Assembly: GCA_027325485.1 (NCBI GenBank)
Contig: DAIEFN010000005.1
Location: 1-34,764 of the forward strand
Direction: 5' to 3'
DNA from: Candidatus Saccharimonadota bacterium
GTDB taxonomy: Bacteria; Patescibacteriota; Saccharimonadia; Saccharimonadales; UBA4665
Length of the DNA: 34,764 nt
Shown here: in pieces, positions 6,456-30,438 of the stretch
Position numbering within the stretch: the first letter of the stretch is position 1
Layout: every line of letters starts with the position of its first letter
Program-made: the position numbers and the translations under genes
The notes under the pieces: generated by a model
Told to the model about the DNA's origin: nothing
Databases searched by the model: none
Seen by the model: the letters and a program-made list of their open reading frames with translations, nothing else

Positions 6456-7142
6456 ATGGTCTTAAAGTTAATTAATAAGGTGCACTTAACGGATAACGTT
6501 TACTCTTTTGTTTTTCAGCCAAGCGAACCACTAAAGATGCAGGCTGGTCAGTTCGTGCGGGTCGAGTTAGCGCATGACAACCCAGACGCTGAAGGCACTA
6601 AGCGTTGGTTTACTAATTCCGCCGCACCCTATGAGGGCATCTTGCAAATTACTACCCGTGTCACTTCAAGCACCTTTAAGCAAGCCCTCTCTAATTTAGC
6701 GGAAGGTTCAGAAGACCTCATTCTAGTTGAAGACCCAGAAGGTGACTTCGTTTGGCAGTCTTCCAGGCTAGCGCTTGTTTTTATTGCAGGCGGGATTGGT
6801 ATAACACCGTTTTATAGCATACTCAAGCAACGCTTACACGATAATTTAAACTTAGCTGTCACCGTAATCTATGCCGCCAGGACTGACGCCATACCTTTTA
6901 AGGATGAGCTAGCTAAGTGGCAGGACTCGCACCCAGAATTTAGAGTTAAGTATGTTATTGGTGAAAGGCTTGATTTATTTAAACTTAACCAACTAATACC
7001 CGCTCTTAAGCAATCATTAGTTTACTTATCTGGTCCCGAAGAGATGGTTGAAGCACTTGGCAATGAACTAAAGAAAGACGGCTTAGCGGAGACTCAACTT
7101 AAACAAGATTTCTTTCCAAACTATAATGATCTGAACTATTAA
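6456..7142 (+). CDS. Ferredoxin-NAD(P)H reductase-like flavoprotein
   Basis: A 228-residue two-domain FAD/NAD(P)H oxidoreductase. The FAD half contains the QAGQFVRVEL strand and RWFTNSAAP, corresponding to the family's RxY(S/T) flavin motif with Trp-Phe replacing the usual aromatic. The pyridine-nucleotide half has AGGIGITPF and SGPEEM (the usual CGPP loop with Cys changed to Ser). No iron-sulfur, heme or membrane domain is attached, so it needs a separate partner. It is a paralogue of the reductase at 11363-12430 but lacks its membrane tail. Start ATG 6456 has GGAG 5 nt upstream (6447-6450) and a TATGAT -10 candidate at 6420-6425. It converges on the sigma gene with a 9-nt gap. Confidence 0.9.
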   Translation: MVLKLINKVHLTDNVYSFVFQPSEPLKMQAGQFVRVELAHDNPDAEGTKRWFTNSAAPYEGILQITTRVTSSTFKQALSNLAEGSEDLILVEDPEGDFVWQSSRLALVFIAGGIGITPFYSILKQRLHDNLNLAVTVIYAARTDAIPFKDELAKWQDSHPEFRVKYVIGERLDLFKLNQLIPALKQSLVYLSGPEEMVEALGNELKKDGLAETQLKQDFFPNYNDLNY

Positions 7143-11362: not shown

Positions 11363-12430
11363 ATGCGTACTTATCTAGTTCAAGAAAACCAAAAGATTAC
11401 AGCATCAACCATATTGCTAAGTTTAAAACGCGACGAAAGTGAGCGTCACTTAGCATTTCAGCCTGGTCAGTACGCTTCAATCGGCTTTGCGCGCAATAAC
11501 AAAAAATCTGCCGTACGTTGTTTCTCAATTGTTAGCTCGCCTACGGATCAAGATCGATTACAGTTTAGTATGCGCCAACGCGGTCGCTTTACGACGGCGC
11601 TAAGCAAGCTTGAGCCTGGCGACATTGTCTATGTAGCTGGGCCATTTGGTGGCTTTGTGTTTGATGCCGATAGGGACAAAACTGCAGTCTTAATGGCTGG
11701 CGGCATTGGTATCACGCCTTTTATGAGCATGATGCGCTACTTAGATAAACTAAATGCTGAAAACGACGTTGTACTACTTTATAGCGTTCAGAACCAAGAA
11801 GACGTGCCATTTAGCGATGAGTTAATCGCAATTGAACGCCGCCATCCGAACTTAAAGACTATCTTCGTGGTTGGTAAAGATAGTACCGATAAATTACCTC
11901 AGCATTCAGTCGTTAGCGGCTACATTACGCCGGAGTTATTAGACAAAGTTACAAATACCAAATATGATGAGCGGCGTTTCTTCATCTGCGGTCCACCAGT
12001 ATTCATGAAAGCTATGTCGGCACTCGTTATGCAAAAGCATGTTCCAAAAAGGCGCATCTTAACTGAAGCATTTACGCAATCATCACCCAAACAGACAAGT
12101 ATTTTGCGGAGCTGGCCAGCCAACGTTTATGCGCTCGGCGCAATCAGCTTTGCTCTTGGCAGTTTAGCGGTTATGGTCAGCGACTTGCTTAAAACATTAC
12201 CCCCGTTAAGCGCCGATCAACCAACAAAAACGACACCTTTCTTTGTTACTAACGCTCGCCAAAAACAGCTTGATCAGCTTGTTAACTCGATCCCGCCTTC
12301 AGCCAGCCTAATTAGTCTGCCGACGACCCCGTCCGCAACTGCTCCAACATCCACTGCGCCAGTAACCGCACCGGCACCAATCTATCTCGCACCCCCGCCT
12401 CGTACTACCGTATCGGTACCGCGACCGTAA
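11363..12430 (+). CDS. Membrane-tailed FAD/NAD(P)H oxidoreductase, first gene of a redox operon
   Basis: A 355-residue protein. Residues 1-240 form a ferredoxin-NADP+ reductase module: QPGQYASIGF, RCFSIVSSP (FAD-binding RxxS, 52-60), AGGIGITPFMSM (113-123) and CGPP (209-212) for NAD(P)H. A single TM helix lies at about 255-275, followed by an 80-residue Pro/Thr/Ala-rich tail. A cytoplasmic reductase would place the tail outside the cell. The tail contains PFFVTNARQKQ (292-302), almost identical to a motif in the disordered protein at 2128-3252, and ends with an APIYLAPPP stretch. The fused anchor is unusual for this family. Expected role: pass electrons from NAD(P)H to the heme membrane protein encoded two genes downstream. 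Confidence 0.92.
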   Translation: MRTYLVQENQKITASTILLSLKRDESERHLAFQPGQYASIGFARNNKKSAVRCFSIVSSPTDQDRLQFSMRQRGRFTTALSKLEPGDIVYVAGPFGGFVFDADRDKTAVLMAGGIGITPFMSMMRYLDKLNAENDVVLLYSVQNQEDVPFSDELIAIERRHPNLKTIFVVGKDSTDKLPQHSVVSGYITPELLDKVTNTKYDERRFFICGPPVFMKAMSALVMQKHVPKRRILTEAFTQSSPKQTSILRSWPANVYALGAISFALGSLAVMVSDLLKTLPPLSADQPTKTTPFFVTNARQKQLDQLVNSIPPSASLISLPTTPSATAPTSTAPVTAPAPIYLAPPPRTTVSVPRP

Positions 12431-12437
12431 AGAAATA

Positions 12438-13391
12438 ATGCAGTTTCATCAAGAACAACAAGCCTTAGGTAGTATCGCTCAAATAAGCATAATTGCACCT
12501 GACCAGCCACTTGCAGTTAAGTCTATGTTTGATTATCTCTGGAAACAAATATTCATGTTTGAACGTCAGTTTAGTCGCTTTCTACCCCAAAGTGAGTTAT
12601 CTACTTTTAACCGTAATGCTGGCTCAAAGCAGCAAATTAGTCCACAGTTCAAGCGCCTTTTAAAAGCTGCTCTAGATATTGGCCTAGCAGTTGATGGTCT
12701 CTACAACCCCTTCATCCTGCCAGCGCTTCAAGCTGTCGGTTATGGCCCTTCAATTGTTAAGGGACATGAGACTGACTCTTATGACGATCATTCAACTCGA
12801 CATGTCGTCGCTCTGGACAACCTAATAGTTGGTGACAGCTGGGCTAAGATACCTAAAGACACGGCAATTGATCTTGGTGGCTGTGGTAAAGGCTACTTAG
12901 CTGACCAACTAGTCAACGAGATTAAACATAAAGTAAGTGGCTACTGGATCTCTTTAGGTGGCGACGTGGTATTTGGAGGGGAAAATGATCTGCATCAAAC
13001 TTGGCGGATTGGTATCCAAAAAGCCAAGTCTGAATCTAGCTCAACGGATATAGGCTGGGCGGAGCTGGGAACCCAAGAGCGTTACGCCCTAGCTACTTCA
13101 GGCACCACTGCCCGCTACGGAGTAGCACAGGGCAAGCTCTGGCATCACTTAATTGATCCACGTACGCTTCAGCCATCGCAAACAGATGTTTTAACGGCAA
13201 CTGTGGCTGCGCCTTCTGCCCTAAAAGCAGATGTCTTAGCGTCTTGTGCTGTTATCCTAGGTTCAGAACAAGCAATACCGTTCCTTAAGCATCAAAAGAT
13301 AACTTCTGCCTTGCTCCAATGCCGTTCAATCGGGCGAGGGGACTATAATGTCAGCTACGGTAGCATAATACATATAGACGAGAATGCATGA
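12438..13391 (+). CDS. apbE: ApbE-family FAD:protein FMN transferase
   Basis: A 317-residue ApbE family protein, which attaches FMN covalently from FAD to Thr/Ser of target flavoproteins. Motifs: FERQFSRFLPQSELSTFNR (41-59), YNPF (89-92), DLGGCGKGY (145-153), ISLGGD (171-176), ATSGT (219-223), HHLIDPRT (236-243) and ADV with D265 as expected metal ligand. Length is slightly below that of the exported lipoprotein forms because there is no signal peptide or lipobox, which suggests a cytoplasmic enzyme. It starts 7 nt after the reductase gene and overlaps the next gene by 4 nt (ATGA). No classical flavinylation target motif (S/T-G-A-T) stands out in the window. Confidence 0.93.
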   Translation: MQFHQEQQALGSIAQISIIAPDQPLAVKSMFDYLWKQIFMFERQFSRFLPQSELSTFNRNAGSKQQISPQFKRLLKAALDIGLAVDGLYNPFILPALQAVGYGPSIVKGHETDSYDDHSTRHVVALDNLIVGDSWAKIPKDTAIDLGGCGKGYLADQLVNEIKHKVSGYWISLGGDVVFGGENDLHQTWRIGIQKAKSESSSTDIGWAELGTQERYALATSGTTARYGVAQGKLWHHLIDPRTLQPSQTDVLTATVAAPSALKADVLASCAVILGSEQAIPFLKHQKITSALLQCRSIGRGDYNVSYGSIIHIDENA

Positions 13392-14179
13392 AACAAAATA
13401 TAATAAAACTGTTTATGCATATTAATAAACATCGCTTCATGAGCTACGGCTTTGCTTTGCTTTTCGTGTTGTCTCTTTATGGCGTCTTTAATACCCCAGT
13501 TAAAGCGGCAGTGGTTAATAACCCGGCTCAAGTTATAACCACTAAAAGTGGTGATTCAGTAGACTTATTAGTTCCACCCCTACAAGGACCAGATGTAGCC
13601 ACCCGGCTATCCAGTCGGGCTCGATCTTCCTGGCCCTGGTACATCACACGCGCCTCTGGGCTAGTAGCAGCTGTTACACTTGTCATTTTAATTCTTTCCG
13701 GTGTCGGGTTAATTACTGGCTATTCGTTTCGGTTTCTTGAGCCTTTAACTGCCTGGGCGACCCATAAGGCACTCGCAATAGTCTTTGGGCTATCAGTTCT
13801 TGTTCACGGCACCGCACTCCTATTTGATCGCTTTGTGCCGTTTACGATTGTGCAGGATCTAGTACCATTTGCCTCACATTATCGGACGCTTACAATTGGC
13901 AGCCATCATTTTGGATCAATCTATACTGCACTTGGCATTATAGCGTTCTACCTTATCTTAGCTGTCATAATCAGCTCCTTACTCTGGATCGATAAAAAGC
14001 CACACACTTGGAAAGCGCTGCATTTCTCAGGCTATCTAATAATGATCTTTGTTTTCATCCATGCACTTTATTTAGGTACTGATCTTGCACACGGTATCTT
14101 TCGCATACTTTGGATTATTTTCGGTATAGGCGTAGCAGTGGCAATTATTGACCGGTTGCGCAGAGCAGGTTCAACATGA
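13388..14179 (+). CDS. Ferric-reductase-like di-heme transmembrane protein
   Basis: A 263-residue membrane protein. The N-terminal hydrophobic segment ends PVKA-A (38-41), consistent with a signal peptide cleaved after residue 40. An outward-facing segment of about 45 residues follows, then a ferric reductase-like core of about five or six TM helices. Two helices carry paired His: H126/H140 (14 apart) and H212/H225 (13 apart), the spacing used for two stacked b-type hemes across the membrane. Known relatives (NOX, FRE, MsrQ) carry electrons from a cytoplasmic flavoprotein outward. It lacks its own FAD/NAD domain, which the reductase two genes upstream could provide. ATGA overlaps at both ends imply translational coupling. 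Confidence 0.9.
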   Translation: MKQNIIKLFMHINKHRFMSYGFALLFVLSLYGVFNTPVKAAVVNNPAQVITTKSGDSVDLLVPPLQGPDVATRLSSRARSSWPWYITRASGLVAAVTLVILILSGVGLITGYSFRFLEPLTAWATHKALAIVFGLSVLVHGTALLFDRFVPFTIVQDLVPFASHYRTLTIGSHHFGSIYTALGIIAFYLILAVIISSLLWIDKKPHTWKALHFSGYLIMIFVFIHALYLGTDLAHGIFRILWIIFGIGVAVAIIDRLRRAGST

Positions 14180-14772
14180 CCGACGTCCAAAAAATACACC
14201 AACGTAATCGCTTCAAACGTTTAGCCGTTTGGATTGTAATTTATCTTCTAGTGTTCGGTATTTTTTTAGCGGTCATCTTGCATCAAAGTAGTCGCGTTAA
14301 TACTCTAGGATTTCCTGCCGGGCAGATTGGCTTAACAGTTTCAAATGTGAAATACACGGTCGGACAAACCGTCGACTTTACGATTACTAATCAACTAGAT
14401 AAGCCCATCACTCTAGTTGAAAATTGCCCCAATGCGCCGCTCCATATCTATCAATGGGAAAGCAGCCAGTGGGTGAGCCTTCATTCCACGTCAACCACAA
14501 TTATCTGTAGCAACCAACCTGGCAGAATAGTAATTCAGCCCAATGCTTCATACAAAGGTAACTACTCTAACTGGCCACAACTGTTCGCTAAGCCAGGGAT
14601 ATATCGCCTAGTTGCGTTTGCGGAGAACTATACGTCCCTACCATTTGTCGATTTTGAAGTCGTAGCGAAACCGATTCCAGTGACGCCAACTGTTATTATT
14701 CAGCAAGTCTTTACGCCAATTTACCTAACAGCACCAACTGACCACGGCGGTGGTGGTGGCACCGACAACTAA
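14176..14772 (+). CDS. Membrane-anchored extracellular beta-sandwich protein of the redox operon
   Basis: A 198-residue protein with a short basic cytoplasmic N-terminus, one TM anchor at about 17-36, then an extracytoplasmic domain (45-160) with alternating hydrophobic strands (IGLTVSNVKYTVGQTVDFTI, PITLVENCP) typical of an Ig-like or BsuPI-like beta sandwich. Two Cys (NCPNAP and IICSNQ) could form a disulfide. The C-terminal tail reads PIYLTAP followed by DH and a Gly5-type run. A PIYL-AP motif also occurs near the C-terminus of the operon's reductase. It overlaps the previous gene by 4 nt. The role is unknown; an external docking or assembly partner of the reductase complex is plausible. 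Confidence 0.85.
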   Translation: MTDVQKIHQRNRFKRLAVWIVIYLLVFGIFLAVILHQSSRVNTLGFPAGQIGLTVSNVKYTVGQTVDFTITNQLDKPITLVENCPNAPLHIYQWESSQWVSLHSTSTTIICSNQPGRIVIQPNASYKGNYSNWPQLFAKPGIYRLVAFAENYTSLPFVDFEVVAKPIPVTPTVIIQQVFTPIYLTAPTDHGGGGGTDN

Positions 14773-23492: not shown

Positions 23493-23519
23493 ATGAAGCA
23501 ATTGCGGAAGTCGTTATAA
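23493..23519 (+). other. Possible 8-codon upstream ORF before the VKOR gene
   Basis: ATG 23493 starts MKQLRKSL and ends TAA at 23517-23519; that stop overlaps an ATG (TAATG) in the VKOR frame and sits inside TATAAT 23515-23520. Either it is a coupled leader peptide on a longer transcript, with VKOR starting at 23519, or the TATAAT is the promoter and this frame is irrelevant. The two readings exclude each other on a single transcript. Confidence 0.2.
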
Positions 23520-23520
23520 T
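23515..23520 (+). promoter_or_regulatory. -10 element TATAAT, leaderless GTG start of VKOR
   Basis: A perfect TATAAT whose end is 7 nt before GTG 23528. The ATG at 23519 overlaps the hexamer and would be excluded from the transcript. Confidence 0.45.
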
Positions 23521-23527
23521 GAGCCAA

Positions 23528-24130
23528 GTGAAGACCAGCTGGAATCTAGAACGTACAATCCCATGGCTGTTAATAGTTATTGGTATCATCGGCTTAGTTT
23601 CATCACTTGTCTTAACGCACGACACTTTAGCCATTAATGCCAACGCGCATTATGTACCGTCTTGTAACCTTAACCCAATTGTTAGCTGTGGTGGTGTTAT
23701 TAGCCACAAGGGAGACACCATCTTCGGGCTACCGTATCCGTTTTATGGTGTGGCAGCCTTTGCGGCTGTTATAACCCTGGGCGTTGGCTTGGTCGCAAAA
23801 GCGAAATTCCAAAAATGGTTCTGGCTAACTTTCCAAACCGTCGTCACCCTAGGACTTGGCGGTGCCTACCTGATGCTACTTAAAAGCATCTACCAAATAC
23901 ATGCGCTTTGTCCGTTCTGCTTAACAGTGGATGTCGCTACGACAACGCTATTTTGGTACACCACACTATATAATGCCGACCGCGGACTAATCGATGCCCG
24001 GCTACCTAAAAACCGTTGGTACAAACTAGTTCGTAAACATCACTTAGACCTATTATTACTCTGGTTTTTGATTCTAGCGGCGGCCATTATTAAACATTTT
24101 TGGTATTACTACGGGAAACATTTTCTGTGA
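23528..24130 (+). CDS. VKOR-family thiol oxidoreductase (disulfide-bond formation)
   Basis: A 200-residue membrane protein with four to five TM helices. From GTG 23528 the loop Cys pair is C46 and C54 (CNLNPIVSC) and the redox-active CPFC is C128 and C131, the full four-Cys set of bacterial vitamin K epoxide reductase homologues. These enzymes reoxidise a DsbA-like partner and pass electrons to quinone. No thioredoxin domain is fused and no DsbA is in the window. The frame also contains ATG 23519, but that lies within the -10 element. The TGA stop overlaps the GTG start of the next gene (GTGA). Confidence 0.92.
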   Translation: MKTSWNLERTIPWLLIVIGIIGLVSSLVLTHDTLAINANAHYVPSCNLNPIVSCGGVISHKGDTIFGLPYPFYGVAAFAAVITLGVGLVAKAKFQKWFWLTFQTVVTLGLGGAYLMLLKSIYQIHALCPFCLTVDVATTTLFWYTTLYNADRGLIDARLPKNRWYKLVRKHHLDLLLLWFLILAAAIIKHFWYYYGKHFL

Positions 24131-29655: not shown

Positions 29656-30438
29656 TCACTGTGCTGTAATCTGTCCAACGTCTGTCGTTTCCCAGCTGTT
29701 TTCGTACAACCAGGTACCACCATGCTGAAGGATGAAAGATGCACTCTGATGAACGTTTAGGATTCCAAGATCTAAATTCGGGTCATTATTTAGAGCCATA
29801 AAGTGCATTCCGCCCTCGGTCGTAGAATTCAGTACACTAACTTTAGTGCCAATTGGTACTCGAGCTATATTAGGCACGAAGCCAAAGTTGGTGTAGTTAA
29901 TGAGCAGGCTCTTAGTCGCGGGATCATATTTAGGCATCTCGTGATCATTAAGACCCTGCCAGCTCGCCAACGACTCGTTAACGCCACTCACATTACCCCT
30001 TAGTGCTGGGCTGTTGTTGGCTTCAAACTGCCAGCTGCCAGCGCTACTCACCACGAAAGATTTAGTATTGCCTGGGGTAATAGTTCCTAAATTGAGTCCT
30101 GGCAGGTTACCAATTTGAATCGGTAGCGGCATGAACAGTAGCGGGTGAGTCGTTGCGTTACTAACAAATATCGTTGTGCCAACGGGCACTACGAACTCGT
30201 TAGGCTCAAAGCCGTACTGATCGAACGACACAACCACACTAGGGCCGGGAGGGGTCGACGGTACCGCTAAGACTGGAGGCGGACTAACTTTTTGCACTCG
30301 CGAAGAAGACGTAGCTGGTGGCTGAGTTTTATGGGTTGTTAAGCGACCCCAGGTAAAAACACCATAAATTGCGCCGGCCGCAACCAATAAAACAGCAGTT
30401 ATGATTAACACATTCCCTAAAATGCTTCGGCTGGACAT
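29656..30438 (-). CDS. Membrane-anchored tandem cupredoxin-like protein
   Basis: A 260-residue protein with an N-terminal TM helix (about 8-30), a Pro/Ser linker, and two related beta-sandwich domains. Both contain the cupredoxin motif: FDQYGFEPNEFVVPVGTTIFVSN in the first, YTNFGFVPNIARVPIGTKVSVLN in the second. Each also has a LDLG/LNLG strand and an end strand with GSWQF or GTWLY. The Cys of the type-1 copper site is missing in both, although His is present after the N in TTHP and in GGMHFMAL, so blue-copper electron transfer is unlikely. Binding of a ligand, a protein or a different metal site is more likely. Precedes the HtrA-like gene, probably in one operon. Confidence 0.88.
   Translation of the reverse strand: MSSRSILGNVLIITAVLLVAAGAIYGVFTWGRLTTHKTQPPATSSSRVQKVSPPPVLAVPSTPPGPSVVVSFDQYGFEPNEFVVPVGTTIFVSNATTHPLLFMPLPIQIGNLPGLNLGTITPGNTKSFVVSSAGSWQFEANNSPALRGNVSGVNESLASWQGLNDHEMPKYDPATKSLLINYTNFGFVPNIARVPIGTKVSVLNSTTEGGMHFMALNNDPNLDLGILNVHQSASFILQHGGTWLYENSWETTDVGQITAQ

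Follow-up and report, generated by a model that had tools for sequence, protein, structure and literature searches.

A conserved four-gene operon of Saccharibacteria that probably encodes a flavin- and haem-based transmembrane electron-transfer module

The window analysed here is a 34,764-nucleotide (nt) stretch of DNA from a Candidatus Saccharimonadota bacterium (GenBank assembly GCA_027325485.1, contig DAIEFN010000005.1), a tiny bacterium that is probably host-dependent. At positions 11363-14772 it carries an operon of four plus-strand open reading frames (ORFs), which encode an FNR-type reductase, an ApbE flavin transferase, a membrane protein with a ferric reductase domain (FRD) and an immunoglobulin (Ig)-like protein. 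The operon is a real, conserved feature, and one that is prone to mis-annotation. On the basis of sequence comparisons, we consider it likely that it forms a transmembrane electron-transfer module, namely a variant, found in Patescibacteria, of the MsrQ-like flavinylation systems. If so, flavin-based transmembrane electron transfer would extend to a group that was described as strikingly under-represented, as the candidate phyla radiation (CPR), in the 2021 survey of flavinylation (Méheust 2021, PMC8238504). A literature search for ApbE or ferric reductase in Saccharibacteria or Patescibacteria found no paper under those terms.

The four proteins and their predicted cofactors

The four ORFs occupy positions 11363-12430, 12438-13391, 13388-14179 and 14176-14772; genes 1 and 2 are separated by 7 nt, and the gene 2/3 and gene 3/4 junctions are each a 4-bp ATGA overlap. 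Gene 3 (13388-14179, plus strand) encodes the FRD-like membrane cytochrome b, with five helices in its AlphaFold model preceded by an N-terminal hydrophobic signal or anchor that is possibly cleaved. The window protein itself has no convincing Pfam match, with PF01794 below detection, whereas 12 of 16 members of its family match PF01794 at E<=0.5 (best 2.5e-8), and a profile built from these 16 sequences aligned by hhalign to FRD-FNR ferric reductases with a probability of 98.8% (E 4e-17). In this alignment, H126, H140, H212 and H225 are in register with the FRD histidines, and all four are invariant in 28/28 gene 3 homologues. The predicted haem ligands H126 (codon 13763-13765) and H212 (14021-14023) are assigned to the cytosolic side and H140 (13805-13807) and H225 (14060-14062), all on the plus strand, to the outer side, because of the N-terminal signal or anchor and the charge distribution.

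Gene 1 (11363-12430, plus strand) encodes an FNR-type NAD(P)H:FAD reductase in residues 1-240 (FAD, flavin adenine dinucleotide), with matches to the FAD and NAD domains of FNR (PF00970, 3e-11; PF00175, 1e-15), followed by a single transmembrane helix at the hydropathy maximum (residues about 255-276, positions 12125-12190, plus strand) and an extracytosolic Pro/Thr-rich tail. The anchor region contains three residues, Y256, D274 and P280, that are invariant among 16 sequences, and orthologues share 53-71% identity in the closest loci and about 33-50% in divergent ones. Gene 2 (12438-13391, plus strand) encodes an ApbE FAD:protein flavin mononucleotide (FMN) transferase, supported by the PF02424 match (1.3e-49) and by matches to ApbE structures in the PDB (to 3e-21). 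Its catalytic residues S221, H237 and D265, taken from the known Ser/His/Asp residues of ApbE (PMC12052999), are invariant in 28/28 homologues; by hydropathy, no N-terminal hydrophobic segment or signal peptide is present on this ApbE.

Gene 4 (14176-14772, plus strand) encodes an extracytosolic Ig-like protein anchored at its N-terminus in an N-in orientation. Its family shows a weak Big_14 match in 10/11 members (best 1.6e-6), and its AlphaFold model (pLDDT 80) retrieves Ig-like folds by Foldseek. Cys84 and Cys111 are both invariant in 28/28 homologues and probably form a disulfide. A VKOR family protein encoded at window positions 23519-24130 (plus strand) is a possible source of such an extracytosolic disulfide.

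An initial annotation, made from the letters and reading frames of the window, had described the same packing of the genes, a reductase with FAD and NAD(P)H domains and a membrane anchor, an ApbE, a di-haem ferric-reductase-like protein and an anchored beta-sandwich protein. The ORFs and junctions are exactly as it gave them, and each of the four assignments was borne out by the matches above.

Conservation and co-variation of the operon

The comparison comprised 61 genomes, i.e., the window's own and 60 relatives, and a further phylum-wide set of 380 genomes; L and G numbers below denote loci and genomes. Strong gene 3 matches occur in 13 of the 61 genomes, and their distribution is patchy even within the genus. 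The order FNR-ApbE-FRD-Ig is kept in 28 of 43 loci taken from named genomes, mostly of Saccharibacteria, a count that includes one locus (L130) in which the contig begins within the reductase gene; three further loci are cut by contig ends yet are consistent with the four-gene order. When pairwise distances are compared between the four genes, the matrices correlate with rho of 0.81-0.90, whereas 500 permutations gave a maximum of 0.43. Thus, the gene order that the initial annotation had asked to see in relatives recurs, the paired histidines are retained rather than lost, and the genes do not scatter independently; its view of the four genes as one flavin/haem electron-transfer unit with a tethered reductase is upheld by a coherent, conserved and co-varying set.

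Three features did not appear in that annotation, i.e., a conserved C-terminal tail motif (see below), the existence of two paralogous forms and the absence of the reductase domain from relatives in other parts of the phylum. The second form is a three-gene operon, FNR-ApbE-FRD, found in G011, G017, G026, G028 and others, with no Ig gene and with a shorter FRD protein that has no N-terminal helix. In the wider phylum, 38/380 genomes match at E<=0.001, only about ten of them strongly. Loci from beyond Saccharibacteria can lack the FNR domain, in which case a stand-alone protein with a transmembrane helix and a Pro-rich tail lies beside ApbE-FRD (L154, L155, L193-L196). The only locus found outside Patescibacteria is an actinobacterial contig (L156) with ApbE-FRD-NuoF, an arrangement described for MsrQ-like systems (PMC8238504).

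Several ApbE-FRD loci of other Patescibacteria (L192, L194, L195, L196, L154 and L155) also encode an acidic secreted protein, in most cases with DxDxDG-type repeats, and several of their FRD proteins bear similar N-terminal repeats. Weak FRD-like matches across the order (L041-L047) were considered as relatives of the operon and set aside as a distinct, ApbE-less family. These loci and L202 encode another His-containing membrane protein of ~210 aa, weakly FRD-like and widespread in the order; in L044, L046 and L202 its neighbour is a cupredoxin-like gene.

Proposed mechanism

Family homology and the invariant cofactor residues suggest the first two steps. The FNR domain at the cytosolic face would take up hydride from NAD(P)H on its FAD and would then give single electrons to the two haems b of the FRD protein, held by an inner pair (H126-H212) and an outer pair (H140-H225). 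The electrons may then exit to an extracytosolic flavoprotein to which the operon ApbE has attached FMN. This would be either an FMN_bind protein from another locus of the genome or the tail of the reductase itself. That extracytosolic tail and the Ig-like protein could also keep the components assembled or provide a docking site for the acceptor. Candidate final acceptors are O2, iron, quinone and the host.

Several observations weigh against this scheme. The presumed flavoprotein acts outside, whereas the ApbE has no signal peptide; the operon has neither an FMN_bind protein nor a conserved [ST]GA[ST] motif; and 14 genomes that carry the operon or a related one have no detectable FMN_bind. 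The AlphaFold model of the FRD protein is of moderate quality (pLDDT 73), and its top Foldseek matches, SpNOX, NOX and cytochrome b561, fall short of significance (best E 0.31), so they are not used as proof. In addition, ferrochelatase is absent in 60/61 genomes, and haem is therefore presumably imported or scavenged.

The initial annotation regarded such a route for electrons as unexpected in a reduced cell. This view is not supported, as a haem-copper oxidase is usual among relatives (PF00115 in 44/61 genomes), and so is a separate locus with FMN_bind, ApbE and NqrB-FNR. No PF00115 was found in the window's own genome, which is 83% complete. The operon appears independent of this oxidase, because G015, G054 and G031 have the operon without PF00115. 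For the reduction of external metal, which was also suggested, we found no positive evidence.

Comparison with known systems

MsrQ-like systems are built around an FRD protein that has six helices and two haems; ApbE and FMN_bind usually accompany it, as does an NAD-binding domain, PF00175, which is often fused, or a NuoF-like protein (Méheust 2021, PMC8238504). The operon shares with them a membrane protein of the FRD family that is predicted to be di-haem, an ApbE in the cluster and an NAD(P)H-linked FAD/NAD module. However, instead of a PF00175 domain fused to the FRD it has an FNR protein of its own, which is tethered to the membrane and bears an extracytosolic tail, its ApbE has no signal peptide, an Ig-like protein is added, the window FRD escapes PF01794, and the FMN_bind or other known [ST]GA[ST] substrate typical of such clusters is missing.

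The 2021 survey filtered for a signal peptide or lipidation site (lipobox) on ApbE or its substrate and detected FRD via PF01794 (PMC8238504), and would therefore miss this operon, whose ApbE fails the signal peptide/lipobox filter. The initial annotation had likened the operon to extracytosolic flavin electron-transfer systems, but ordinary extracytosolic flavinylation is not supported, since this ApbE lacks a signal peptide and the operon lacks FMN_bind and a conserved [ST]GA[ST].

NQR/RNF-like single-path flavinylation systems have been reported from CPR and Actinobacteria (PMC8238504). These share with the operon an NAD(P)H module, ApbE, an extracytosolic flavin output and the same organisms, whereas the membrane part of the operon is FRD-like and not NqrB/RnfD; the system of this type in the window's own genome (L098, see below) also differs from the operon in carrying FMN_bind with SGAT. 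NOX/SpNOX, STEAP and bacterial FRD-FNR ferric reductases have the FRD core with paired histidines and an FNR-type reductase in common with the operon, which in contrast uses two polypeptides (no fused FNR) and has an ApbE partner and an Ig protein.

Candidate substrates of the operon ApbE

Twenty genomes were surveyed for substrates, the actinobacterium and 19 Patescibacteria in which the operon or a related one occurs. ApbE is present in all 20, while FMN_bind at E<=0.1 is absent in 14 (G031, G357, G202, G327, G188, G061, G296 and G433-G439); in those 14, neither DUF2271 nor DUF3570 scored over the cut-off. The FMN_bind hidden Markov model (HMM) can miss divergent copies, as shown by G349, where a true SGAS protein reached no better than 0.0126. 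DUF2271 was also considered as the substrate in the window's own genome, and none was found. Within the operon proteins there is no conserved [ST]GA[ST]; TGA[ST] occurs sporadically in an FRD loop (5/43 loci), and the wider loop motif TG-x-[TS] was rejected as a flavinylation site because the acceptor is lost in L036 and L039 and absent in L153-L156. According to the 2021 survey, unidentified ApbE substrates must exist (PMC8238504).

In divergent loci, the tail of the reductase or of the stand-alone tether has a conserved end. All 20 tails in 19 such loci terminate in [ST]-x-[AVST]-S-COOH (e.g., TTVS, TKTS, STVS and TRAS), compared with 1/202 other ORFs of the same loci, with the expression having been written after the tails had been inspected. 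In the window, the counterpart is TTVS at residues 348-351 of gene 1 (positions 12404-12415, plus strand), in the context PRTTVSVPRP. Among the four-gene forms, a TT..[ST] core is retained close to the C-terminus in 27/28 tails, the sole exception being L136, and most tails run past the motif or have become a C...TTxSG..C loop. In two loci (L143:741-2150 and L136:2-1003), the FNR tail is fused to a C-terminal Peptidase_S74 (endosialidase chaperone) domain, with the junction between TTAS and SDKRLK; L143 matches PF13884 and the L136 sequence is near-identical. This domain is a phage-type self-cleaving module, here on a bacterial reductase. S74/ICA domains are reported to cleave on the N-terminal side of the catalytic Ser in S-x4-K, e.g., between P586 and S587 of MyRF, with K592 (PMC8326128). 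Applied to L143 and L136, this rule predicts a TTAS-COOH end, which suggests that an exposed [ST]x[AVST]S terminus has a function. The tail may serve ApbE as a new acceptor, or it may instead act as a tag in docking or sorting.

Three explanations of the ApbE and its electron output were weighed. It is possible, though we would put it somewhat below an even chance, that the ApbE target is an exported FMN_bind protein encoded elsewhere, so that FRD and NqrB-FNR would be two inputs to one FMN carrier. In the window's own genome this would be the protein of L098:6780-9562 (on another contig, C22), where FMN_bind (QIISGATFTS, with SGAT) is followed by ApbE and an NqrB/FNR fusion of the NQR/RNF-like class, a type of locus kept through most of the genus. 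FMN_bind is likewise present in most operon-bearing members of the genus. In L188:307-9035, a three-gene operon converges on an FMN_bind (ISGAS) and NqrB-FNR pair with no ApbE between, and in L120 the operon and an FMN_bind cluster are about 2 kb apart; both clusters support a shared electron-transfer role. However, the FMN_bind loci of the window's genus have their own ApbE (that of L098 likewise has no signal peptide by hydropathy), and the 14 genomes without FMN_bind at E<=0.1 speak against an FMN_bind target, even if the HMM can be weak. The L188 operon is flanked by a cytochrome b, a Crp-family regulator and DUF2127.

More doubtful is that ApbE would modify the reductase's own extracytosolic tail at the non-canonical [ST]-x-[AVST]-S, with the FMN on a flexible tether shuttling electrons from the outer haem. 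The occurrence of the motif as the natural C-terminus of all 20 divergent tails, the predicted cleavage of the S74-fused tails and the persistence of the stand-alone tether beside ApbE-FRD where FNR is absent all favour it, as do the 14 genomes with ApbE and no detected FMN_bind, DUF2271 or DUF3570. ApbE is also known to modify the last S/T of its motif, C-terminal tags work, and about 50% of the flavinylation is retained when G is changed to A, or A to V (PMC12052999). However, the motif lacks the Gly-Ala and the upstream Asp of D-x-x-[ST]-G-A-[ST], the ApbE looks cytosolic whereas the tail is extracytosolic, most four-gene-form tails are extended or looped, and the expression was chosen after the tails were seen. 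The same idea, extended across Patescibacteria, would make the free terminus of the tethered protein (which in Saccharibacteria is the reductase and in several other lineages a stand-alone tether) a new ApbE acceptor, i.e., a natural C-terminal flavin tag; we hold this only tentatively and think it rather unlikely. If true, a flavin on a string would take the outer-haem electrons, and two related genomes would appear to make the terminus by S74 self-cleavage. Such a short conserved C-terminal peptide travelling with ApbE is a concrete and directly testable candidate for one of the unidentified ApbE substrates.

Least probable of the three is a NOX-like oxidase or ferric reductase, in which the outer haem would reduce O2 or Fe(III) directly and ApbE would supply or mature the flavin cofactor of the complex. 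The haem ligand topology is that of the FRD superfamily, SpNOX is the best, though not significant, Foldseek match, and STEAP4 is the best PDB profile match (E 0.021); the three genomes with the operon and no PF00115 also fit. However, this explanation gives no reason why ApbE accompanies FRD in nearly all loci, iron transporters were not seen among the recurrent neighbours, and no conserved metal site was identified on the Ig protein.

Neighbouring genes

The Zn/Mn importer that had been pointed out beside the operon does adjoin it in the window, but this neighbour is not conserved: ZnuABC adjoins the operon in the window only, and in G031 the two are about 2 kb apart and on opposite strands. 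A functional link between importer and operon was therefore set aside. A second, stand-alone FNR-type reductase is encoded 4 kb upstream of the operon (positions 6456-7142, plus strand). Finally, the ORF at 29656-30438 (minus strand) contains two cupredoxin-like repeats without Cys; it has no Pfam match and weakly resembles the cupredoxin-like protein of L046.

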